DNA from: Verrucomicrobiales bacterium
Lineage (GTDB): Bacteria; Verrucomicrobiota; Verrucomicrobiia; Verrucomicrobiales; V1-33
Assembly: GCA_018003315.1 (NCBI GenBank)
Contig: JAGNEJ010000001.1
Span: 1 to 64,000, forward strand
Direction: 5' to 3'
Length of the DNA: 64,000 bases
Shown here: piece by piece, positions 9,400-25,314 of the stretch
How the letters are laid out: the number at the start of each line of letters is the position of its first letter
Position numbering within the stretch: the first letter of the stretch is position 1
Notes under the pieces: model-generated
Database searches by the model: none
What the model saw: the letters and a program-made list of their open reading frames with translations, nothing else
Told to the model about the DNA's origin: nothing
Made by a program: the position numbers and the translations under genes

Positions 9400-10890
9400 G
9401 TGCCCACGCTCCGCATCAGCCCGTCCCATTCTGCGTACCATGCCATCGTCATCGGCTCCGGTCCGAATGGACTGGCGGCCGGCATCACGCTGGCCCGGGC
9501 TGGACTTCGGGTTCTTTTGGTGGAAGCACTAAGCACGATCGGCGGCGGGATGCGGACGGAGGAATTAACCCTGCCGGGTTTTCACCATGACATCTGCTCC
9601 GCCGTGCACCCCATGGGGGCGGTTTCGCCGTTCATGCGCTCCGTTCCCCTGGAAAAATTCGGCCTCGAATGGGTGCATCCAGAGATCCTCCTCGCCCACC
9701 CCCTGGACGACGGCAGTGCGCCCGTCCTCCACCGCGACATCGCCCAGACAATCGCAGCCTTACCCAGCAAGGACCGCCGGGCCTACGAGACGAGCATCGG
9801 CTGGCTCGCCCGATCACTGGACAAACTGCTGCCGGACATGCTGGGACCGCTGCTGCGCTTTCCCAGTTGCCCCGTTGCCATGACACGCTTCGGGCTCACC
9901 GCAGTGCAAAGCGGCTGGCGCTTCGCCATGCGCCAATTTGCTTCTCCGGAGGCCCGCGCCTTGTTTGCCGGAAACGCGGCGCATTCCATTCTGCCGCTGG
10001 AAGCCCCCGCCACCGCTGCGGTCGGCCAGATGCTGATGGCCGCTGGGCATGTGGCTGGCTGGCCGGTGGCAAAAGGAGGCTCGCAGGCGATCGCCCGGGC
10101 CTTGGGTCGCTATTTTGAGGCCCTGGGTGGGGAAATCGCTGTGAATTTCCGCGTGAAATCCCTCGCCGACCTGCCAAAGGCCGAAGCGTATTTGTTCGAC
10201 ACCACGCCACGCGGACTGGTGGAAATCTGCGACGAAACACTGCCCGCCCGCTACCGGAAACGACTCGCGACCTTTCGCTACGGTGCCGGTGCGTTCAAGG
10301 TGGACCTGGCATTGAGCGGTCCCATTCCGTGGAAAAACAATGCCTGCCGCCGGGCCGGCACCGTCCATGTCGGCGGGACGATCGAAGAAATCGCTGAGGC
10401 AGAAAGGACCGTCAGTCAGGGGAAGATCCCGGAAAAACCGTTTGTCCTGCTCGCGCAGCAAAGCGTCGCGGATTCGCATCGGGCGCCGCACGGACGCCAC
10501 ACCTGCTGGGCCTACTGCCATGTACCTTCTGGCTCCACCGGCGACGCCCTGGAACCCATTCTCCGGCAAATCGAGCGGTTCGCCCCAGGTTTTCGCGACA
10601 CCATTCTTGCCACCCGGGTGATGCGTCCCCCGGATTTCGAGGCCTACAACCCGAACTACGTCGGGGGAGACATCATCGGCGGCGTCCAGGACCTGCGGCA
10701 GCTTCTCGCCCGGCCAGTGCTCCGACGCGATCCCTATGCCACCCCAGTCCGCAGCATTTATCTGTGCAGTTCCTCCACGCCACCCGGTGGCGGCGTGCAT
10801 GGCATGTGCGGACACCACGCTGCGATCTCCGCCCTGCGCCAGGTCTTCGGGCTGTCCACAAAGCCGGAGACGCCCCCGAATATCGGCTAA
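9400..10890 (+). CDS. Phytoene-dehydrogenase-like FAD-dependent oxidoreductase
   Basis: A 496-residue flavoprotein starting at the GTG at 9400. The N-terminal dinucleotide-binding motif is AIVIGSGPNGLAAGITLARAG (GxGxxG), with the acidic residue that binds ribose in LLVEA, then GGGMRTEE. The C-terminal FAD-contact region is GGGVHGMCGHHAA. Length and layout fit the CrtI/phytoene desaturase-related superfamily (the group that includes PYROXD2-like oxidoreductases) rather than a true carotenoid desaturase; no carotenoid genes are nearby. The substrate is unknown. It is transcribed alone; the next 190 nt before the convergent gene at 11080 hold nothing I can identify. Confidence 0.78.
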   Translation: MPTLRISPSHSAYHAIVIGSGPNGLAAGITLARAGLRVLLVEALSTIGGGMRTEELTLPGFHHDICSAVHPMGAVSPFMRSVPLEKFGLEWVHPEILLAHPLDDGSAPVLHRDIAQTIAALPSKDRRAYETSIGWLARSLDKLLPDMLGPLLRFPSCPVAMTRFGLTAVQSGWRFAMRQFASPEARALFAGNAAHSILPLEAPATAAVGQMLMAAGHVAGWPVAKGGSQAIARALGRYFEALGGEIAVNFRVKSLADLPKAEAYLFDTTPRGLVEICDETLPARYRKRLATFRYGAGAFKVDLALSGPIPWKNNACRRAGTVHVGGTIEEIAEAERTVSQGKIPEKPFVLLAQQSVADSHRAPHGRHTCWAYCHVPSGSTGDALEPILRQIERFAPGFRDTILATRVMRPPDFEAYNPNYVGGDIIGGVQDLRQLLARPVLRRDPYATPVRSIYLCSSSTPPGGGVHGMCGHHAAISALRQVFGLSTKPETPPNIG

Positions 10891-15690: not shown

Positions 15691-17307
15691 TCATACTTTG
15701 AATTCACTGTGAGACAGGGCGGGCAAATGCAGTCCAAACTCTCCGATGTTGCTTCGGGGATCAAATTTTCGAGCAAACCACGGCCCGCTCGACACGATTT
15801 CCCCAACCAGTTCCGCTGAAACATTTCCAAATGCCTCCGGATGGGCTCCGCCTTTCCATTTTGCCAACGTTGGATCAAACGGTGCCACCTTTTCATGCAG
15901 CGGGTAGCCTTTCAGTTGCAGTACCGTTCCCACATAACTCTCGTCGGGAGCAAACATCGCCTCCATGAGTCCCGTGAAATCGTCCTCGCACACCAATTCA
16001 GCCGCCTCCCGGTTCAGCAGCACCCACTGCGAATGAAAACGCCAGTCGCCCGTGGTGACCCTCCTTGCTTGGTTCATCCGCGGCACCTTCTCAGGCTGAT
16101 CTTTTTCAATTTGCTGGCCGGTTTTCCAGTTGAACCGGCTGCGGGAATCAATGCGCAGCAGCCGCAGCAGTTCCGCAAACGGACGAACCGGCACGCAGCT
16201 TTCGGAGACAAAAATGAAATGGGTGTTGCTGCCCTCCTTCAGCGCCTCTGCCAGCAATGCCAGTTGCGTCCGCACCAGTGAAATGTCGCCCCACCGCGTT
16301 TCCAGATGTTTTGGAATTTGCGCCCCTTTCAGCCAGCCATCCGCTGCCGGTTGTGGCTGCGCGATGTGGGAGTAAATCCGCCGGCGGCCCTCCCCTCCTG
16401 ACCAGTATTGCTCCCAGACTTGCGGGTGGTTCACCTCTCCCCGTGTCAGGAACAGGAACGCCACCTGTGGTCCCGTCGCTGCACCGCCCTCTCCGCCGCC
16501 CGGTTCCGGCGGTGTCTTGTCGCCGTCCGGCTCTTTCTCAGCCCATTCGGGAATTCCAAAATGTCGCGCCGGTTTGAACCAGGCGCTGGTCCGGGTGCTT
16601 TGCCGCTTCACCGGCGCATAAGCCTTTCCGCCCAGCGCTTCCGCAGGAATTCCCCGCAGATTGTCATGTGCCCAGCTTTGCTGGCAGTCGTCCGTGTAGT
16701 GGCGGTACGTCGCCCCCACCAGATCCGAATACTCCTCCCGCTGTCCTGCCAGGCTGGGGTAGGGCGCATACGTTGGAATCCGCTCCATCATCCGGCCCAA
16801 AATCACGTCCGCCGCCGGAATGTGGGAGTCCCCGTCCATCCGGGCGTCTTTCAGCGCGGCCATCACTTCCCGGTAATGGCTGGCCCGCACCCCGAACGCC
16901 TGCGTATCCAGCATCGCCCGCACCCGCACGAGTCCCGCAGCCACCGCCACGGGCCGTTCATGGTGCGTTCCGCCCAGATACACCATCCCCCAATCCTCCG
17001 GAAGTTCGATTTCCTCCAGCCGCTGATGCAGGTCTGGATGCAGCGTCACATCGTCCTCAAAAATGAACACGGCCGGCCACTTTTCATGCATTGCCCGGCG
17101 CAAAATCAGGCGGCAGCTCAACGCATGGGCATACCTGCCTGGAAACTGAAATCCCCGGGCGTCGGAAAATCTGCGCGCATCCACTGCAGGGAATCGCTCC
17201 ACCTCCAGCCCAAAATCCTCGAACAACTGCTCGCACCGCGCCCTTCGGTCCTGCCGCCGCGCCAGATTCAGCAAAAAGATTTTCGGAAATGTCTCCTGGA
17301 GTTTCAT
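15691..17307 (-). CDS. Fused glycosyltransferase: GT25 domain plus GT14/DUF266-like domain
   Basis: A 538-residue protein of two catalytic modules. Residues 1-215 are a GT25 (LPS/collagen-type galactosyltransferase) domain: KIFLLNLARRQDRRARCEQL, HALSCRLILRRAM and the DxD-like IFEDDVTLHPD. A Pro/Gly/Glu-rich linker (about 255-285) leads to a second domain (about 288-520) with AFLFLTRGEVNHPQVWEQYW, TRWGDISLVRTQLALL and HFIFVSESCVPVRPF, the pattern of GT14 core-2 branching enzymes and of plant BC10/DUF266 proteins. Both act on sugar chains, so the protein may add two sugars in sequence to a surface glycan. It lies downstream of the GT8-like gene (210 nt gap that holds two G+C-rich hairpins, 17379-17395 and 17406-17420) on the same strand. 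Confidence 0.75.
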   Translation of the reverse strand: MKLQETFPKIFLLNLARRQDRRARCEQLFEDFGLEVERFPAVDARRFSDARGFQFPGRYAHALSCRLILRRAMHEKWPAVFIFEDDVTLHPDLHQRLEEIELPEDWGMVYLGGTHHERPVAVAAGLVRVRAMLDTQAFGVRASHYREVMAALKDARMDGDSHIPAADVILGRMMERIPTYAPYPSLAGQREEYSDLVGATYRHYTDDCQQSWAHDNLRGIPAEALGGKAYAPVKRQSTRTSAWFKPARHFGIPEWAEKEPDGDKTPPEPGGGEGGAATGPQVAFLFLTRGEVNHPQVWEQYWSGGEGRRRIYSHIAQPQPAADGWLKGAQIPKHLETRWGDISLVRTQLALLAEALKEGSNTHFIFVSESCVPVRPFAELLRLLRIDSRSRFNWKTGQQIEKDQPEKVPRMNQARRVTTGDWRFHSQWVLLNREAAELVCEDDFTGLMEAMFAPDESYVGTVLQLKGYPLHEKVAPFDPTLAKWKGGAHPEAFGNVSAELVGEIVSSGPWFARKFDPRSNIGEFGLHLPALSHSEFKV

Positions 17308-17517: not shown

Positions 17518-18381
17518 TCACATCTCGATCAGGTTTAAAAACGTAATTCCCGGGTCCCCGTAAAACCGCGCCATGTAGGCCCCGAACATGAACTGAATCC
17601 GATCCGCCTGGGAAGCTCCCGTGCAGTGCAGCACCGCCGCGTCCCTGTAGGTTTTCCAGTCCGGATCGTGCGTCAGCGGGCAGCGCATTTCTCCATCCTC
17701 GAACGGTTTCACCCGCAGCCCGCAGTCCCGCAGCACCCGGTTCCACGCACTGGCGTCCACCCGGCTGGTTGGCCGGGAGGGACTCAATCCCATCACCCGC
17801 TCCCATTCCGCCATCAAGGCGGCAAAATGCTCCCCCCGCACCGCCCACGCCCACGTCGCCGCCGGATACACGCTCACATTTGGCATTCTGCCGCTTGGAC
17901 GCTGCGCCTCCTTTTCCAATTCTTCCACCGTCAGGAAACCGGCATACCTTTCGTCGCCCGGGCTCGCAGCGGCATCGCGCACCACCAGCACATCCGCATC
18001 CGTGCGGAACAGGTGATCCAAATCCCGCAGCACCAGGCAGTCCGCATCCAGCCACAGCACCCATTCATAATCCTCCGCATTGAACATTTCCCGCACCTTC
18101 GGCACCCAGCGCCGTGCATGGTCGGCCAGTTGTGCCCCCTTCAGCGCCGGCGTGTCCACCACCACTTCCTCCAGTCCCTCCCGAAACACCAGAAACAGCG
18201 GTCCCGCCGAGTTCCGGAACACCTTCACTTCCCCTCCAAAATAGTTCCGCACCAGCGACCCCGCCAGCATCTTCGCCATCTGCAGTGTTCCGCCCGTTTC
18301 CGGCGGGTCAAACGCCACCGTCACCGCCAGTTTGGGTTTGGACAGGGAACATCCTGGTTCTCTTGCATTCGCCATGCCCAT
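17518..18381 (-). CDS. GT8-like glycosyltransferase (intact copy)
   Basis: A 287-residue protein. The start at 18381 (MGMANAREPGCS) follows AAAGG at a suitable distance; a longer in-frame extension to 18564 exists but looks non-coding. The central WVLWLDADCLVLRDLDHLF carries the DxD metal/nucleotide-sugar motif and the C-terminal AVLHCTGASQADR carries the His-x-x-Gly typical of GT8 and related retaining transferases; the acceptor-side motif WNRVLRDCGLRV also fits. It probably transfers a sugar to a cell-surface glycan together with the neighbouring GT25/GT14-like fusion. Positions 17670-18408 are duplicated at 21492-22230, where the copy has lost its last 50 codons. Divergent from the Tat-signal protein at 18557. 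Confidence 0.75.
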   Translation of the reverse strand: MGMANAREPGCSLSKPKLAVTVAFDPPETGGTLQMAKMLAGSLVRNYFGGEVKVFRNSAGPLFLVFREGLEEVVVDTPALKGAQLADHARRWVPKVREMFNAEDYEWVLWLDADCLVLRDLDHLFRTDADVLVVRDAAASPGDERYAGFLTVEELEKEAQRPSGRMPNVSVYPAATWAWAVRGEHFAALMAEWERVMGLSPSRPTSRVDASAWNRVLRDCGLRVKPFEDGEMRCPLTHDPDWKTYRDAAVLHCTGASQADRIQFMFGAYMARFYGDPGITFLNLIEM

Positions 18382-18408
18382 TGTTAGCAGCCTTTTCCGC
18401 CATTGCCA
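17670..18408 (-). repeat. 739-bp direct repeat, copy A (GT8-like gene)
   Basis: This segment recurs at 21492-22230 in the same orientation, with a constant offset of 3822 at both ends. It covers 27 nt upstream of the glycosyltransferase start (including the ribosome-binding site) and the first 237 codons. I count 16 amino-acid differences over those codons. Similarity stops sharply at both edges. Confidence 0.92.
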
Positions 18409-18556
18409 GCTTCCTTCCCAAAAATCGTCCGGCAACTCCCCCGCGCTCAAAAAAGATAGGAATCTTCTTCTGGACATCTCCGCATCCTCAGGAGAAACTC
18501 GCCCGTGCGGATTCCCCCTGCTTGAACCCAGCCCAAGCCCAAAAGCCACGAATCCC

Positions 18557-19975
18557 ATGAACAACGATCAAAATCCCAGAGAGAGAGAGGGAGAGAGCTG
18601 CAATTTCCAGAATGAGGTCCGCGCTGCGTGGAATAACCCCATCAGCAGGCGGAGGTTTCTGAAGCGGACGGGCGGGGCGGCTGCAGGCACAACCATCTTT
18701 TTTCAATTAACAGGAACACGCCAGGCGGTAGCTGATCCTGCTGAAATTCACGATCCCTCTGGCGATATCAAATACAAATTGATTTTCGATCTCGGTGGTC
18801 AAACGCAGGAGCGTGAAGGCACTTCGACAACTTTTGATCCCACACTGATTGTGGTTGTCCCTGAAGGAGTCGGAACAGTAAGATTGCGCATCGATGGAGT
18901 GCGGGAGACGGACAAGGATGAAGTAACGTGGAGCGTGCAACGGAACGCCAACGATTCTAGCGGTGCGAAAGCCACACCTGACATTGTTGTCACGCCGGAT
19001 CCTTCAGACAAACGTAATGCTACAATTAGTGCTCCACAAAACCTTAAGGGAGTTTATGGTTCATTTTTGATTTCCGTTGGGCTTCAGGGATCAACCCTTG
19101 TTGTTGGCCAATTTATCGTTATCCGTTCCGTGATTGATGTGGCAACGGCAACGCCGAAACTCCATTGGGTATTTGCTCCTATAGATCAAGGCGGAGGGTT
19201 GCACGGCCTGTTCTCTACCAACAAACCGCAGCCTCCTGCAGGACCGTTTTTGGATTTTTTAGCGCATATCATTTTGCGTGGCGGAAACGGTGACGAAAAA
19301 TTGGGCTGTCAAAGAATTCACCTTGGTTTCATTGGTAACTTAAGATCAACAACTAGATTCCGAACTTATGAAGTGACGATTGGGGAGGTCACGCACAGCC
19401 GTTTTGAAGAAGAGCAATTTGAGGATACTCACTCCAGACTGCTAGACAAACTAGACGGCCCAGCTGCAAATGGCCAATGGAATAAAGTACCGGACAGTTA
19501 TCGTTCAACCTCGGAGGAGATTCCAGCTTCACCCTATTCTCAGCCTTCGACTGGCAAGCTACTATACTTGATCGCCAACGACTCTCCCAATTTTCAGTAT
19601 TCAGCCGAAGTACCGAAATCTGAAACTGTAAAACTTTACATTAAATCCTTGGGAGGTATCCTCGAATTCGAGGATTTCATCGCTTCTCATTCCGACGATT
19701 TCAACCGAGCAGCTGCGATTGATGCCGGGATATTTTGGTCGCTAGAGTTTTCCGCTATTTTGAATCACCAGACGACCCCACCAAATAATTCAGCAACTGG
19801 GACGTGCAAAATAGAAGGCAATTTTATTCCTAATGGTCAAAGCGTAAATTTCCGGAAAGAGAGCTCGGATTTTCCGACGCCGGGAACTGCTCCATACGTT
19901 ATTCAACCAGGAGGAACAACAGCGACAGATTTGGATGACCCGGGTTTACACTTCACCGATACTACAACCGAATGA
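18557..19975 (+). CDS. Tat-exported protein of unknown function
   Basis: I do not recognise this 472-residue protein. The ATG at 18557 is followed by a hydrophilic leader and a clear twin-arginine signal (SRRRFLKRTGGAAAGTTIFF, about residues 32-51), so it is folded before export. The rest is rich in short beta strands (KLIFDLGGQTQ, TLIVVVPEGVGTVRLRIDGV, GVYGSFLISVGLQGSTLVVG, FRTYEVTIGEV) without Cys clusters or a known catalytic motif. An AG/GA dinucleotide tract lies at codons 8-14. The segment is visibly richer in A+T than the genes around it. Its stop overlaps the next gene's start (ATGA), so the two are translationally coupled. It lies between the two copies of the glycosyltransferase repeat, suggesting acquisition by transfer. 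Confidence 0.7.
   Translation: MNNDQNPREREGESCNFQNEVRAAWNNPISRRRFLKRTGGAAAGTTIFFQLTGTRQAVADPAEIHDPSGDIKYKLIFDLGGQTQEREGTSTTFDPTLIVVVPEGVGTVRLRIDGVRETDKDEVTWSVQRNANDSSGAKATPDIVVTPDPSDKRNATISAPQNLKGVYGSFLISVGLQGSTLVVGQFIVIRSVIDVATATPKLHWVFAPIDQGGGLHGLFSTNKPQPPAGPFLDFLAHIILRGGNGDEKLGCQRIHLGFIGNLRSTTRFRTYEVTIGEVTHSRFEEEQFEDTHSRLLDKLDGPAANGQWNKVPDSYRSTSEEIPASPYSQPSTGKLLYLIANDSPNFQYSAEVPKSETVKLYIKSLGGILEFEDFIASHSDDFNRAAAIDAGIFWSLEFSAILNHQTTPPNNSATGTCKIEGNFIPNGQSVNFRKESSDFPTPGTAPYVIQPGGTTATDLDDPGLHFTDTTTE
18578..18597 (+). repeat. AG dinucleotide tract near the start of a CDS
   Basis: Six AG units, GG, then three more GA-type units, inside codons 8-14 of the Tat-exported unknown. Slippage of one unit would shift the frame ahead of the signal peptide. 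Confidence 0.8.
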
Positions 19976-21090
19976 AAGTTAACTTTTGGATAGCAATTGC
20001 TACATTTTTCAGCAATTTTGCTGAATGCGTCGCCGGGAACGATGCTGAAGTCGATAATTATTCAATACATGAATCCCTCAATTCCGGCGGTGGACTTTAT
20101 CTCATTTCTGTAACTTCAGTTGAAGGTGACGAGCCGCGGCGAGGAGCGCGAACATTGGAGGCGCACGCCAAAGTTGTAGTTATGGAGACGATTGCGGGTA
20201 AGCGCCGACACTCGTTTTCCATTCCATATAAATATTTGATAATCGGAACGCGGGATGGAGGTCCAGCAATGATTGGAAACCCGACTGGTTACGACGATGC
20301 GGATCTAGAAATTCCCAACGCAAAATTTGTTATTCTTGCTACTCCCGGAGTCAACAGAAACGGCGTATATCCTCCTAATGTAGAAAAATTCGGATTCAGC
20401 ATGCTGGCGCCAGCGGAGAAAGTAATCGAAAAATCAAGAATCGTCGCGGAACTTTGGTCGAATCCGTTATCTCTGGAGAGGCGTGTTGAATTGCTTGATT
20501 TGCTAGTGGAACCAACGCATGACAGGCGGTTTTTTAGAAGACAGGAAGCTGGATTGTTTTGCCGCTTTGCGCTGTCCGAAGCAACTCAGACCGTGCTGCC
20601 CCTCGACCCAAAAGTTTATAAGCGCTTTCTCGACCATATTGGTCCACGCATCTCAAAAAATTACCTTGCGTCATACAAATGGGGCCTCGACGAGGCGTTG
20701 AAATGGACCGGGGAAAACGGCATGATTCCCGGCATCCCTTCGGACTTAAGCAAATGGTATTTAGCAGAGGATATGTCAGGGATAAATAAATTAGTGGACT
20801 GGCTTTGTGCAAACACTACATCCCCTCAAAACGATATTTTTCAAATGCGCAAGGGAACGAATCTTTCCGGCCCTGGAACTGGAAGGAACACTGGGCGGTC
20901 AGATTCCGGCGGTCTTCTCGAACCTTCCAAAAAGCGCTTTCCAAATGCGCTGTCAGAAGACCGATTTGCAAAACCGCAGATCGAGCGGGGGGGCATCAGC
21001 GCAGGCATGTTGGTGGTTTGGCTGGCGGTGTCAGGAATCGTCTGCGGAGGTGCTTTGTGGATCGGGTTCAAACGCTGGCGGGAGGTATAA
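19972..21090 (+). CDS. Exported, C-terminally anchored protein of unknown function
   Basis: I do not recognise this 372-residue protein. It starts at the ATG at 19972, overlapping the stop of the gene before by four bases. Residues 1-21 are a signal peptide (MKVNFWIAIATFFSNFAECVAG), and residues about 345-364 are a single membrane segment (AGMLVVWLAVSGIVCGGALWIGF) followed by the basic tail KRWREV, so most of the protein should lie outside the cytoplasm. The body has a strand-rich first half (GGLYLISVTSVEGDEP, AHAKVVVMETIAG, KYLIIGTRDGG) and a helical second half (RIVAELWSNPLSLERRVELLDLL). The membrane anchor and coupling suggest that it forms a complex with the Tat-exported partner. A+T content is higher than the surroundings. 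It ends 38 nt before an IS66-type end. Confidence 0.68.
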   Translation: MKVNFWIAIATFFSNFAECVAGNDAEVDNYSIHESLNSGGGLYLISVTSVEGDEPRRGARTLEAHAKVVVMETIAGKRRHSFSIPYKYLIIGTRDGGPAMIGNPTGYDDADLEIPNAKFVILATPGVNRNGVYPPNVEKFGFSMLAPAEKVIEKSRIVAELWSNPLSLERRVELLDLLVEPTHDRRFFRRQEAGLFCRFALSEATQTVLPLDPKVYKRFLDHIGPRISKNYLASYKWGLDEALKWTGENGMIPGIPSDLSKWYLAEDMSGINKLVDWLCANTTSPQNDIFQMRKGTNLSGPGTGRNTGRSDSGGLLEPSKKRFPNALSEDRFAKPQIERGGISAGMLVVWLAVSGIVCGGALWIGFKRWREV

Positions 21091-21128
21091 TCGTCACACT
21101 TTTTCACTCCATTCACGTGGAATTAGAG

Positions 21129-21491
21129 GTAAGCGTCTCACCAGACCATGTTGGTGCCGACCTTCGTGGGCGTCGGGCGGCGGGCGGCCGCGGCGGGCGG
21201 TGCGAGCCGTGGACGGGGCACCTCAGCGGGCGCGGAACCAGGCGGCGGGAGTCAGCGCGGGGACGACGGACGTGGTGCCATTGGCCAGGCGGGGGAGGAC
21301 GTCGGCGAGGTAGTCCCTGGGATTGAGGCCAAGGCGCTTGGCGGATTCGATCACGCTGGCGATGGCGGCGACGCGGGGTCCGGCTTCCCAACTGCCGACG
21401 TGGAGCCAGTTCTTGCGGCCGAGCACCAGGGGGCGCACTGAGTTCTCCGCCCAGTTGGTGTCGAGTTCGACTTCGCCGTGGTCAAAGATAC
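21129..21491 (-). mobile_element. IS66-family remnant: right end and C-terminal part of the transposase
   Basis: Minus-strand codons 21223-21491 match the C-terminal end of the IS66 transposase TnpC: LDTNWAENSVRPLVLGRKNW, GSWEAGPRVAAIASVIESAK and NPRDYLADVLPRL. The terminal sequence GTAAGCG at 21129-21135 is, from memory, the start of IS66-type inverted repeats. The N-terminal part of the transposase, the tnpA/tnpB genes and the other end of the element are absent: similarity ends at 21491, where the duplicated glycosyltransferase begins. The element is therefore dead. Confidence 0.82.
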
Positions 21492-22203
21492 GCGTCAGCG
21501 GGCAGCGCATTTCCCCATCCTCAAACGGTTTCACCCGCAGACCGCAGTCCCGCAGCACCCGGTTCCACGCACTGGCATCCACCCGGCTGGTTGGCCGGGA
21601 GGGACTCAATCCCATCACCCGCTCCCATTCCGTCATCAAGGCGGCGGAATGTTCCCCCCGCACCGCCCACGCCCACGTCGCCGCCGGATACACGCTCACA
21701 TTCGGCACCCGGCCGCCCGGACGCAGGGCCTCCTTTTCCAATTCTTCCGCCGTAAGGAAACCGGCATATCTTTCGTCACCCGGTCTCGCAGCGGCATCCC
21801 GCACCACCAGCACATCCGCATCCACACGGAACAGGTGGTCCAAATCCCGCAGCACCAGGCAGTCCGCATCCAGCCACAGCACCCATTCATAATCCTCCGG
21901 TCGGATCATTTCCCGCACCTTTGGCGCCCACCGCCGGGCATGGTCGGCCAGTTGGGCCCCCTTCAGCGCCGGCGTGTCCACCACCACTTCCTCCAGTCCC
22001 TCCCGAAACACCAGAAACAGCGGCCCAGAAGAATTCCGAAACACCTTCACTTCCCCTCCAAAATAGTTCCGCACCAGCGACCCCGCCAGCATTTTGGCCA
22101 TCTGCCGCGTTCCCCCCGTTTCCGGCGGGTCAAACGCCACCGTCACCGCCAGTTTGGGTTTGGGCATGGAACATCCTGGTTCTCTTGCATTCGCCATGCC
22201 CAT
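21223..22203 (-). pseudogene. Chimeric ORF: truncated GT8-like copy fused in frame to IS66 transposase tail
   Basis: The first 237 codons from 22203 (MGMANAREPGCSMPKPK) are the second copy of the GT8-like gene, with the same ribosome-binding site and the DxD motif WLDADCLVLRDLDHLF. At 21492 the reading frame passes without a stop into 89 codons of IS66 transposase. The last 50 residues of the glycosyltransferase, including its HCTG motif, are lost, so catalysis is unlikely even though the 326-codon frame is open and could be translated. I class it as a pseudogene on that ground. Confidence 0.8.
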
Positions 22204-22230
22204 TGTTAGCAGCCTTTTCCGCCATTGCCA
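21492..22230 (-). repeat. 739-bp direct repeat, copy B
   Basis: Second copy of the segment at 17670-18408, same orientation. Its left edge is the IS66 remnant and its right edge is a sugar-isomerase fragment on the other strand. Confidence 0.92.
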
Positions 22231-22231
22231 T

Positions 22232-22615
22232 CTCGAACACGGCAGGCAGGTGCTGCAATACGACCGGGACTCTGAGTGGACGCAGCAGCACCTCATCAAC
22301 CGCGTGGAGCCCACCGCCACGGGCGAGGGATGGACCGAGGAGCGCACCGGACTCCACGAGTCCGAGTTCATCGAAACCCGCCGTCACTGGTTCACCGGCC
22401 CTGTTCCCCACAACACCGGAGGCACGCTCAACGTGCTCAACCTGATCGAAGGCCGCGAGGCCATCGTCGAAAGCCCCAGCGGCGCCTTTGACCCCTTCGT
22501 CGTCCACTACGCCGAGACCTTCATCGTGCCCGCAGCCGTCGGCCCCTACACGATCCGCCCGCACGGCGAGTCTGCCGGCCGGCGCTGTGCCACCCTCAAG
22601 GCTTTCGTGCGCTGA
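22232..22615 (+). pseudogene. C-terminal fragment of a class I mannose-6-phosphate-isomerase-like gene
   Basis: An open frame that starts exactly at the edge of repeat copy B and has no start or ribosome-binding site of its own. It encodes about 127 residues: VLQYDRDSEWTQQHLINRVE, HNTGGTLNVLNLIEGREAIV, PFVVHYAETFIVPAAVGPYT and a C-terminal ATLKAFVR. The 'VHYAETFIVPA.VG.Y...P.G' end resembles the cupin-type C-terminus of class I phosphomannose isomerase relatives seen in PVC bacteria. The N-terminal two thirds are missing, presumably lost when the repeat arrived. Confidence 0.6.
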
Positions 22616-22657: not shown

Positions 22658-24280
22658 CTACTCCGTTTCGCCGGATAGCGGCGCGGCGGGGGCGGAATCG
22701 GGACGATCCAGCATGGATTTGACCACCAAGCCTTTGGCGATTTCCAGCCAGCTGCGGGCCCGCTGCGGGCCGGGAGGAAACCGCATCGCCAGTTTGGCGG
22801 CTTCGGATTCACCCTGGGATGCGGCCACCTGACGGAGATCCTTGAACGCATGGTCTTGGGAAAGGGCAAATCCGGGACCCGCGGAGGATTCCACCGGAAG
22901 GCCGGCCAGCGCTTCCAACACCACGCCGCGTCCGTCGGCGGGCAGTCGTTCAGCCAGAGCCAGGGCGTTTTCCCAATCGCCATCACGGAACAGCACCAGT
23001 GCAATGCTGCGCGCTGACTGGACGGAAGGGACCTGCTTTTGCAGCAGAGGGCGGAGATCTGCCAGCACCTCGTGCAACCCCTCGGGTTCGGAATTTTTGA
23101 AAGCGGCGTCAAGCAGGGCGGCCAGCACATCGATCGCCTGCTGGTCAGGCAGGGTCTGCGCAAGAGTGCGGGCGGATTCCAGACAACGGCGGCTCTGGTC
23201 GAATTCCAGGGCATCATTGCAAAGCTGTCCCAGATCCACCCACAGCGCCCCCTGACTTGCGGGCGGACACGCGGCGATAGCCCTGCGGGCAAGGTCGGCC
23301 AGGGGTTTCCACTCCTCCGGAGTTTTACCCAACTGCCAGGCAGCACGGGTGGCCAGCAACCAGGCTTGCGCCTGCGGCAGCGGGGCCGTTTCGGCCTCCG
23401 CCCGGCGGCGGAGATCCGCGCGCAGTTCCGCGGGAGTTTCCAGAGTGCCATTGAGCCTGGCGGCCTCCAGGCGCAAGGGCAGGCGCAGGCTGGCGGGAAG
23501 GGAATCCAGCAGAGCCCGGGCATTTTCCGGATGCTCCATGCGCACCAGGCGGAAAAGTTCCGCCAGCAGTTCGTCGCAGGCTGACTCCGGCAAATCCTGA
23601 CACAAGGCTCTGACCCGGTCCGGATGGCCCAGCCAAAGGTGAATCCAGGCCAGTTGTTCGCGCAGTGCCGGCTGGACTTCGGGAGCTGCTGCTGTCAGCA
23701 GGTTTTCCAGCCCTGGAAGCCGTCGCGCGGCTTCGTCGCGACCGTCGGTTTCCGCCATAACCCTGACAATTTTTGCCTCCAGGACCGGCTCCGGACGCTG
23801 TCCCAGCGCCAAATCCGAAAGGCCCATCCGCGTGATTTCGAGCAGAATTTCCTCCCGTGCCGCAGCGCGACGGACGGGATTTGCAATCCGCTCACAAAAC
23901 TGCAGGGCCGGCGCAAGCGACCCGGAATCTTTCTGCAAATGGCCGCGGGCAAGGGCGCGCCAGGCCTGCTCCCGCAGGGCGGGTTCGGCAATTCGCCCGA
24001 CAACCGCAGCGGCAGCGTCGAAATTTCCTGCCCGCAGTTGCAGCATCGACAGCTCCAGCAAATCAAAATCAAAGGCCAGGGGGCGCGGAGATTTGGATGC
24101 CTCCAGGGCGGCCACGGCCCGCTGGACGAGTCCGTCCACGCCGGCATCCTCCGGGGTGTTTTCCGTGGAAAACCACCACCAGAGAAAAGAGCCACACAGA
24201 ACCGCGACGATGACAACCCCGCGCCAGCTTTCCTGCATTTTGGGTGCGGGCGGCACCGGCGGCGTGGCTTCCCCGCTCAT
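22658..24280 (-). CDS. Membrane-anchored helical-repeat (TPR-like) protein
   Basis: A 540-residue protein with a Pro-rich cytoplasmic start, one membrane segment at about residues 20-37 (GVVIVAVLCGSFLWWWF) and a long extracytoplasmic part of Ala/Leu/Glu-rich helix pairs (MLQLRAGNFDAAAAVVGRIA, ALREQAWRALARGHLQ, DVLAALLDAAFKNSEPEGLH), consistent with degenerate TPR/SEL-type repeats. No catalytic motif is visible. Its ATG overlaps the stop of the FHA-cyclase gene (ATGA at 24277-24280), so the two proteins are made together. A scaffold or sensor function linked to cyclic-nucleotide signalling is an inference from that coupling only. Confidence 0.68.
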   Translation of the reverse strand: MSGEATPPVPPAPKMQESWRGVVIVAVLCGSFLWWWFSTENTPEDAGVDGLVQRAVAALEASKSPRPLAFDFDLLELSMLQLRAGNFDAAAAVVGRIAEPALREQAWRALARGHLQKDSGSLAPALQFCERIANPVRRAAAREEILLEITRMGLSDLALGQRPEPVLEAKIVRVMAETDGRDEAARRLPGLENLLTAAAPEVQPALREQLAWIHLWLGHPDRVRALCQDLPESACDELLAELFRLVRMEHPENARALLDSLPASLRLPLRLEAARLNGTLETPAELRADLRRRAEAETAPLPQAQAWLLATRAAWQLGKTPEEWKPLADLARRAIAACPPASQGALWVDLGQLCNDALEFDQSRRCLESARTLAQTLPDQQAIDVLAALLDAAFKNSEPEGLHEVLADLRPLLQKQVPSVQSARSIALVLFRDGDWENALALAERLPADGRGVVLEALAGLPVESSAGPGFALSQDHAFKDLRQVAASQGESEAAKLAMRFPPGPQRARSWLEIAKGLVVKSMLDRPDSAPAAPLSGETE

Positions 24281-25191
24281 GTCAGGATCAGGGCCGGAGC
24301 GGTTTCCACGGCGAAGAGTTCCACGGGCGCCTGGCGGCCCTTCAGTTCATGAATGCCCAGCGGATGGCAGTAGCGCAGCCCTTCCGGCCAGTTGCTGAAA
24401 AAGTCCCCGGTGGCCAGCACATCGCTGCCCAGCACGCGCGTCAGCGCCTGGACCCGGAAGGCGGTGTTGACGGCATCCCCTAACATTGTCAGTCCGCCCT
24501 GACCGAACTGCCCCCAGGCCACATCCCCGGCATGAAGACCCACGCCGCTGGCGAATTCCACCTCGTAGCGCTCAAAGGTCCAGCGCATCTGCTGGGCGAT
24601 TTCCTCGCAGCCGCGCCGGAGTTCCCGCGCGGCCTGCACCGCCCACTTGCGGGCGTTGGGAGTCACGTCGGTCCAGTAGGCGAGCACGGCATCGCCGATG
24701 AATTTGTCGATGGCCGCACCGTGCTCGGTCAGGATTTCATTGCAGTAGTCATACCAGCTACCGATGGCCTGGGCGAGTTCCTCATGCGGGATGATTTCCG
24801 ACAGGCGGGTGAACCCCTTGATGTCGCTGACCAGAATCAGCATGGGAACCGTCTGGACATCGATCTCGGTGGTCGGTGTCGTCTGCCCCGGCACCAGCAT
24901 GTGGAAGCGGAAGCCATGGTCGCAGATGCGGATGACATCGTTCGGCTCCAGTTGCCGGGTGGTGCTGACCCGTTCGTCGTTGATGTAGCTCCCGTTGAAG
25001 CTGCCGAGATCATAAAACCAGTATTGCCCGCCTTCCTGGCGGCGGATCATGGCATGGCGGCGCGACACGCGCGTGTCGGGCAGGTGGATGGTGCAGTCCG
25101 CCTTGCGGCCAAAGATGGTCATGTCCGAGAGGATGTGTTCATCCCCGTCGGCCAGGTTGGCCAAAATGGCATAAGGTTCGTCAGATTTCAT
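24277..25191 (-). CDS. FHA-domain class III nucleotidyl cyclase
   Basis: A 304-residue cytoplasmic protein from the ATG at 25191 (MKSDEPYAILAN). Residues about 18-95 are a forkhead-associated domain (IFGRKADCTIHLPD, VSRRHAMI, DLGSFNGSYINDERV), which binds phosphothreonine. Residues about 118-290 are a class III cyclase: the first metal Asp in LILVSDIKGFTRLSE, Lys and the second Asp in DKFIGDAVLAYW, and the transition-state Asn/Arg in LGDAVNTAFRVQ. The Lys/Thr pair at the purine-specificity positions suggests ATP rather than GTP. It should therefore make cAMP in response to a phosphorylated partner, probably under a Ser/Thr kinase not in this window. Overlaps the downstream membrane protein gene by four bases. 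Confidence 0.85.
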   Translation of the reverse strand: MKSDEPYAILANLADGDEHILSDMTIFGRKADCTIHLPDTRVSRRHAMIRRQEGGQYWFYDLGSFNGSYINDERVSTTRQLEPNDVIRICDHGFRFHMLVPGQTTPTTEIDVQTVPMLILVSDIKGFTRLSEIIPHEELAQAIGSWYDYCNEILTEHGAAIDKFIGDAVLAYWTDVTPNARKWAVQAARELRRGCEEIAQQMRWTFERYEVEFASGVGLHAGDVAWGQFGQGGLTMLGDAVNTAFRVQALTRVLGSDVLATGDFFSNWPEGLRYCHPLGIHELKGRQAPVELFAVETAPALILT

Positions 25192-25314
25192 GCAGCCCGT
25201 CCCGCACCCTGCGGGAACCATGCGGTGTAAGCACATTTCATGCGCCGCCGGAAGGGAAATTTTTCTGTCGAACATCAAATGTCGGGCGGACGGTGAGAAC
25301 CGGGGTATTTCCTG

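Follow-up and report, generated by a model that had tools for sequence, protein, structure and literature searches.

The window analysed here is a stretch of 64,000 nucleotides from a Verrucomicrobiales bacterium (assembly GCA_018003315.1, contig JAGNEJ010000001.1, positions 1 to 64,000). Our subject is a locus within it at which a gene for a GT8-type glycosyltransferase (GT8a) and an incomplete second copy of that gene (GT8b) form a direct repeat on either side of two genes, here called T and M; the product of T carries a twin-arginine translocation (Tat) leader, and M encodes an exported or membrane partner. An earlier note on this DNA had taken T and M for cargo brought in by a composite insertion or an unequal exchange. 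We consider it probable that the region is instead a decayed tandem copy of a resident module, and comparisons across the order make it rather likely that the T-M pair of the window is no foreign insert and represents one example of a widespread, apparently undescribed Verrucomicrobiales gene pair. The module would consist of two back-to-back arms, with T then M in one and GT8 then a GT25/GT14 fusion transferase in the other.

In the genome contigs, a single GT8 protein query returned no loci, and a GT8 alignment was used to collect 18. T genes were found first upstream of the GT8-collected loci, and a model of their leader was then applied. A divergent open reading frame (ORF) with a twin-arginine leader recurs upstream of GT8 in the loci collected by GT8 alone; with the leader model, a T-leader gene stands divergent to GT8 at 12 loci, which cover several genera and at least two families. 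These are the window, contigs C79 and C105 of its own genome, and loci in the genomes G001 (contig C213), G002 (contig C54, where the leader is a remnant of only 73 codons), G005, G008 (two loci), G010, G077, G584 and G544. T is mostly followed directly by an M-type ORF whose N-terminus carries a membrane or lipoprotein-like segment, and the GT25/GT14 fusion gene adjoins GT8 in G002, G003, G005, G008, G077 and G584, making these transferases a conserved pair. In G623 and G489, T and GT8 are close together and share one orientation, and a GT8 fragment follows M in G599. T is absent at the G003 locus and at three loci with tandem GT8 genes (L088, L091 and L093), and no ORF with a Tat motif was seen at L095; L092 and L094 start at a contig edge and were not judged for T. 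In the GT8 tree, the root of which is unknown, T-linked rows occur on both sides, and the T label requires 2 changes as against 5.9 when shuffled, a pattern that would fit an old T-GT8 linkage with losses.

Base composition had been part of the case for an insertion, and the island is indeed A+T-richer than its surroundings, with a G+C content of 45-49% against roughly 56-67%. However, in each of the 13 modules compared the T body has a higher A+T content than the GT8 gene linked to it, the mean difference being 9 points, which makes low G+C a property of the T-M pair; frequent exchange or weak constraint may lie behind it.

What is exchanged can be seen by comparing G005 with G008. Their GT8 proteins are identical and both flanks show 96-98% DNA identity (96% under looser scoring), whereas the intervening 1.95 kb (positions 3144-5096 of L052 and L089), which comprise the T body and M, have no DNA similarity. 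One border falls some 20 codons inside the T leader and the other 34 bp beyond the stop codon of M, and the match between the two T proteins is confined to their first 50 residues. Within-genome pairs (C105 and C75, G599a and G599b, G642a and G642b) also have DNA similarity that spans the leader and stops near its end. Among 30 T genes, leaders are similar in 260 of 435 pairs and bodies in 5 of 378, a contrast inflated by the gathering of part of the leader set through leader similarity itself; T loci gathered by GT8 alone give the same contrast in fewer pairs. Similarity between T bodies comes together with similarity between M proteins in G001b, G001c, G008c and G010. These comparisons show the T body and M exchanged together, with the Tat leader and the neighbouring genes left in place. 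Homologous recombination through the leader and flanks is the presumed route. The term cargo remains apt for the exchangeable unit of T body and M seen in G005 and G008, although not for a foreign insertion.

Some T genes depart from the common form. G001 has two successive T-M pairs (L138:4062-10035). Behind each pair stands a gene for a protein of unknown family (MNWTEIFPI...), the two proteins being related, and the pairs adjoin a divergent gene, apparently for a GT32-type transferase. In G642 the two T leaders share the sequence TRWSILKRTGG, in which RW replaces RR (L137:7226-7639 and 10198-10581). The T protein of C79 (L048:4999-7821) has 940 amino acids, far more than the other T proteins, and a weak match to CBM5/12. 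Tandem GT8 pairs occur in Chthoniobacter and in some bins of the Verrucomicrobiaceae (L088, L091, L092 and L093); for three of these pairs the tree places first and second copies in two separate clades, and that duplication is therefore old.

The two copies of the repeat in the window are separated by a constant offset of 3822 and align without gaps over 739 bp at 93% identity, in agreement with the coordinates given in the earlier note. We found no further full copy in the 5.09-Mb draft genome. Of the 246 codons compared, 27 differ synonymously and 16 with a change of amino acid; counted by base, 49 of the 738 aligned positions differ (11, 7 and 31 at codon positions 1, 2 and 3), with dN of about 0.03, dS of about 0.18-0.31 and dN/dS of about 0.1-0.2 by several methods. 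As the differences are mostly synonymous, both GT8 copies evolved as genes, and the low dN/dS together with the third-position excess indicates that copy 2 was a working gene during most of its history. The GT8b branch in the GT8 tree (0.025) is not longer than the GT8a branch (0.046), and the numbers of departures from relatives (9 vs 6) show no clear difference between the copies. We read the repeat as the trace of an older duplication in tandem, one that had correctly been judged not very recent and that is by itself ordinary. Deletion between the direct repeats, also foreseen in the earlier note, would leave an intact GT8 reading frame, to judge by the coordinates; we observed no such deletion. 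A 22-nt inverted repeat (17155/19863) was set down to chance, on our own estimate of the seed matches expected in 16 kb.

The edges of the repeat are sharp, as had been noted, but they are not those of the duplication. At the left edge of copy 2 the junction falls on 8 bases, GCGTCAGC, which are common to GT8 and the IS66 tnpC gene (C64). The right edge of copy 1 (18408) lies within a 58-bp block of T/GT8 intergenic DNA that is continuous at contig C142 (91% identity); since copy 1 is continuous with this block, the right-hand break belongs to copy 2, which there jumps into an isomerase gene. The sharp edges are, on these comparisons, damage to copy 2 and not insertion or duplication borders. 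Besides C142 and copy 2, the block has weak short matches at C55, C19, C140 and C37.

Copy 2 is cut off, as previously described, by an IS66 remnant and a beheaded isomerase-like gene. The IS66 tail matches PF03050 and PF13817 above cut-off and NF033517 in part, and its end, GTAAGCG, is common to the copies on C64 and C65. The remnant thus resembles IS66 family elements in its TnpC C-terminus and its end, and differs from them in that the element is incomplete, with only the right part left and no readable target duplication, so that the description of a dead insertion sequence holds. It sits on one side of T-M only, with its surviving end facing M. The cargo of a composite transposon is bracketed by insertion sequence copies or target duplications; here T-M is bracketed by repeats of a glycosyltransferase gene of the host. 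The isomerase-like gene retains 128 of about 590 residues. An intact relative of it in G117 has 79% identity to the surviving part and matches the solved mannose-6-phosphate isomerases 1zx5 and 1qwr in PDB (E ~1e-8); no other copy of the isomerase-like gene was found in the own genome or in the family genomes searched.

We propose the following history. GT8 and its upstream region would have been duplicated in tandem in this lineage, after which both GT8 copies evolved under coding constraint, as their differences show. An IS66 element would then have inserted just after M. A deletion on the 8-bp microhomology joined the IS66 tail to mid-GT8b and a second deletion joined the GT8b 5' region to the isomerase tail; both junctions are seen in the DNA, and their place in the order is presumed. 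Together, these two deletions would leave the 739-bp repeat bracketing T-M.

Decayed T-M/GT8 arrays are common. In G005, past the M end of the module, remnants of a T leader and of GT8 (551-1067) adjoin the tail of a GT25 gene, an arrangement that matches that of GT8b in the window. C105 ends within GT8 after a divergent T, and C75 ends within a GT8 tail convergent with the M that belongs to a different T. Each of these GT8 parts has about 80% identity to the one GT8 present in G001; a gap has probably divided a single gene between them, and the result would be a window-like array. Transposase remnants at L130:3907-4584, L077:3065-4331 and L078:8146-8817 adjoin the T-M or scar loci of C105, C127 and C142, and appear to be related to each other and putatively ISL3-like. 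The 58-bp block on C142 (L021:1503-1560) adjoins the truncated start of an apparently GT32-type glycosyltransferase gene (IPKIIHQTWK), and is likely the scar of another module.

A composite insertion or unequal exchange that placed T-M and IS66 in a glycosyltransferase gene, with the 739-bp duplication as a by-product, would account for the low-G+C island, the adjoining IS66 remnant and the bracketing direct repeats. We nevertheless regard it as improbable: the T leader is in the same divergent position at 12 GT8 loci, GT8 and GT25 form a conserved pair, low G+C is general for T-M, the repeat edges are accounted for by the damage to copy 2, and IS66 is present on one side only, its surviving end towards M. 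The earlier note had itself stated that finding the transferases and the cargo as a fixed ancestral cluster in relatives would count against its proposal, and the recurrence of T with GT8 in several genera comes largely to that. An assembly artefact of the metagenome bin, which a 155-contig draft and a multi-copy IS66 might invite, is very hard to credit, as the copies differ by 7%, mostly at third positions, and the IS66 remnant, at only 87% identity to its nearest copy, is unique.

Several points nonetheless weigh against a resident module. In the tree, the GT8 closest to that of the window is the one of G003, yet it stands in a GT8-GT25 pair without T, and T leaders occur at G500, G642 and G008c without a recognised transferase beside them. 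The T and M proteins of the window have no relatives along their bodies. The comparison uses one genome per species, none close to the source species, and the pre-duplication state was not seen; the joining of C105 to C75 is drawn from two contig ends.

Table 1. Features of the locus, in order of position in the window.
Feature	Position	Strand	Basis
GT25 + Core-2/I-branching (GT14) fusion glycosyltransferase	15694..17307	-	PF02485 E 2.8e-24, PF01755 E 8.7e-8
GT8a, intact GT8-type glycosyltransferase, likely ATG start at 18381	17518..18381	-	weak PF01501, family homologs, alignment, GT8 model match 17521-18354
Repeat copy 1	17670..18408	-	gapless alignment with copy 2, 93% identity
Piece of T/GT8 divergent intergenic region	18381..18438	.	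58 bp, recurs at C142:65105-65162, 91%
T, 472 aa, Tat leader (match 18560-18736, SRRRFLKRTGG), body without known relatives	18557..19975	+	TIGR01409, leader model
M, 372 aa, N-terminal hydrophobic stretch, C-terminal transmembrane helix	19972..21090	+	sequence; helix in otherwise poor model
IS66 remnant: right end GTAAGCG (21129), TnpC C-terminal 91 aa (21223-21498)	21129..21499	-	PF03050/PF13817, partial NF033517, alignment to C64 copy
8-bp microhomology GCGTCAGC, IS66/GT8b junction	21492..21499	.	sequence comparison
GT8b remnant (repeat copy 2), without C-terminal part	21492..22230	-	gapless alignment with copy 1, 93% identity
Mannose-6-phosphate-isomerase-like C-terminal 128 aa, head lost at GT8b junction	22229..22615	+	79% identity to intact G117 gene

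Copy 1 belongs, as had been proposed, to an intact gene. Relatives align with its long ORF from about residue 60, and we place the likely start at Met62, near 18381, and not at 18564. GT8a matches PF01501 with E 3.8e-4 and 20.6 bits, under the curated cut-off of 24.3. A DxD motif is conserved in the GT8 alignment, with D112 and D114 invariant. The two copies are accordingly described here as putative remote GT8-like proteins, not as clear Pfam members.

T and M, which had been taken for two coupled exported genes of no known family, overlap by ATGA at 19972, and the pair is divergent from GT8-GT25. The only family match is a weak Tat signal in the T leader (TIGR01409, 16.9 bits against a cut-off of 16.7); neither the T body nor M has a significant match in Pfam, NCBIfam, PADLOC, PHROGs or PDB. 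Single-sequence AlphaFold models of T and M (mean pLDDT 33 and 40) were too poor for a fold search. T is a candidate Tat substrate, having a twin-arginine leader and a hydrophobic region in a genome with a Tat system (TatC, E 1.3e-56).

The transferases neighbouring T-M carry GT8, GT25, GT14, GT11, GT31 and GT32-type domains, several of them fused in one protein, and are accompanied by methyltransferases. Very large genes after M at L053:14075-16693 and L079:4187-7900 fuse GT11, GT32-type and GT31 domains. By a crude hydropathy count in the loci scanned, no transmembrane segments were predicted in the neighbouring transferases and no many-helix flippase-like protein was seen near them. Transferases of these kinds decorate proteins in eukaryotes. 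As Tat carries folded proteins, T could be glycosylated by the linked enzymes before export. The function that fits best, which we put forward tentatively, is that of a Tat-exported surface glycoprotein with a replaceable body, modified by the linked transferases: T would fold in the cytoplasm, be glycosylated there by soluble transferases and leave through Tat, M would hold or assist it at the envelope, and body replacement would vary the exposed surface. More speculatively, the system might be a diversifying surface display of the Verrucomicrobiales, in which a cytoplasm-glycosylated, folded Tat protein has its body and membrane partner exchanged behind a constant leader.

T-M could alternatively be a polymorphic toxin and immunity pair, in which a conserved leader would serve trafficking, the variable body would be toxic and the downstream gene would encode the cognate immunity protein. 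Exchange behind a constant N-terminal part is already known in polymorphic toxins, where a conserved export part precedes a variable part exchanged with its downstream gene (PMC3482391); the exchange between G005 and G008 is like it in this respect. The replaced bodies, the overlapping downstream gene and the pairing of T-body with M similarity in G001b, G001c, G008c and G010 would suit such a pair. However, the constant part here is a Tat leader of about 45-60 amino acids and not a large trafficking protein, and twin-arginine export is not mentioned in the part of that survey available to us (PMC3482391). Many M proteins have 230-400 amino acids and a membrane segment, which is long for immunity proteins, and the steady transferase linkage is left unexplained. 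Comparison with Pfam, NCBIfam, PADLOC and PHROGs revealed neither a toxin nor an immunity domain, though a toxin family new to these collections is possible, and for this reason T-M is not classed as a polymorphic toxin; we consider that identity unlikely. Equally doubtful is that T and M are secreted carbohydrate-binding or polymer-handling proteins selected together with a glycan type, and not glycosylation substrates. The transferase linkage agrees with this, as does the CBM5/12 match of the C79 T protein, just below the Pfam cut-off, whereas nine other T and M proteins scanned gave no carbohydrate-binding or enzyme match and the bodies are too diverse to show a single binding fold.

The surface glycoprotein that we tentatively favour has a partial parallel in serine-rich-repeat adhesin loci, in which a gene for an exported protein stands beside several soluble glycosyltransferases, including GT8, and the protein is modified before export by an accessory Sec system. 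T-M loci differ in having a Tat signal, bodies unrelated between loci and no serine-rich repeats; no SecA2 or SecY2 was seen in the T-M loci read. Known Tat substrates, to our knowledge, keep conserved bodies, whereas T-M conserves the leader only. Tat substrates are exported folded, some as heterodimers with a twin-arginine leader on one protein (PMC10924467, PMC9251779), and M might likewise be a partner without a Tat leader of its own. We found no description of a T-M/GT8 module in the literature, most subscription journals and bioRxiv preprints being out of reach, and the module is apparently undescribed.

The unusual part is that a Tat leader is kept while all behind it is replaced, next to transferases. 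If T is indeed a substrate of these enzymes, Tat would export cytoplasm-glycosylated proteins in a phylum with little-known surface biology. Even without a functional model, the leader offers a handle for collecting many unknown exported proteins and for asking whether phages, predators or rivals drive the replacement. Beyond the isomerase tail, at 22658-25278, lies a gene pair for a TPR protein and an FHA/adenylate-cyclase-like protein, which recurs in family relatives away from the GT8 locus.

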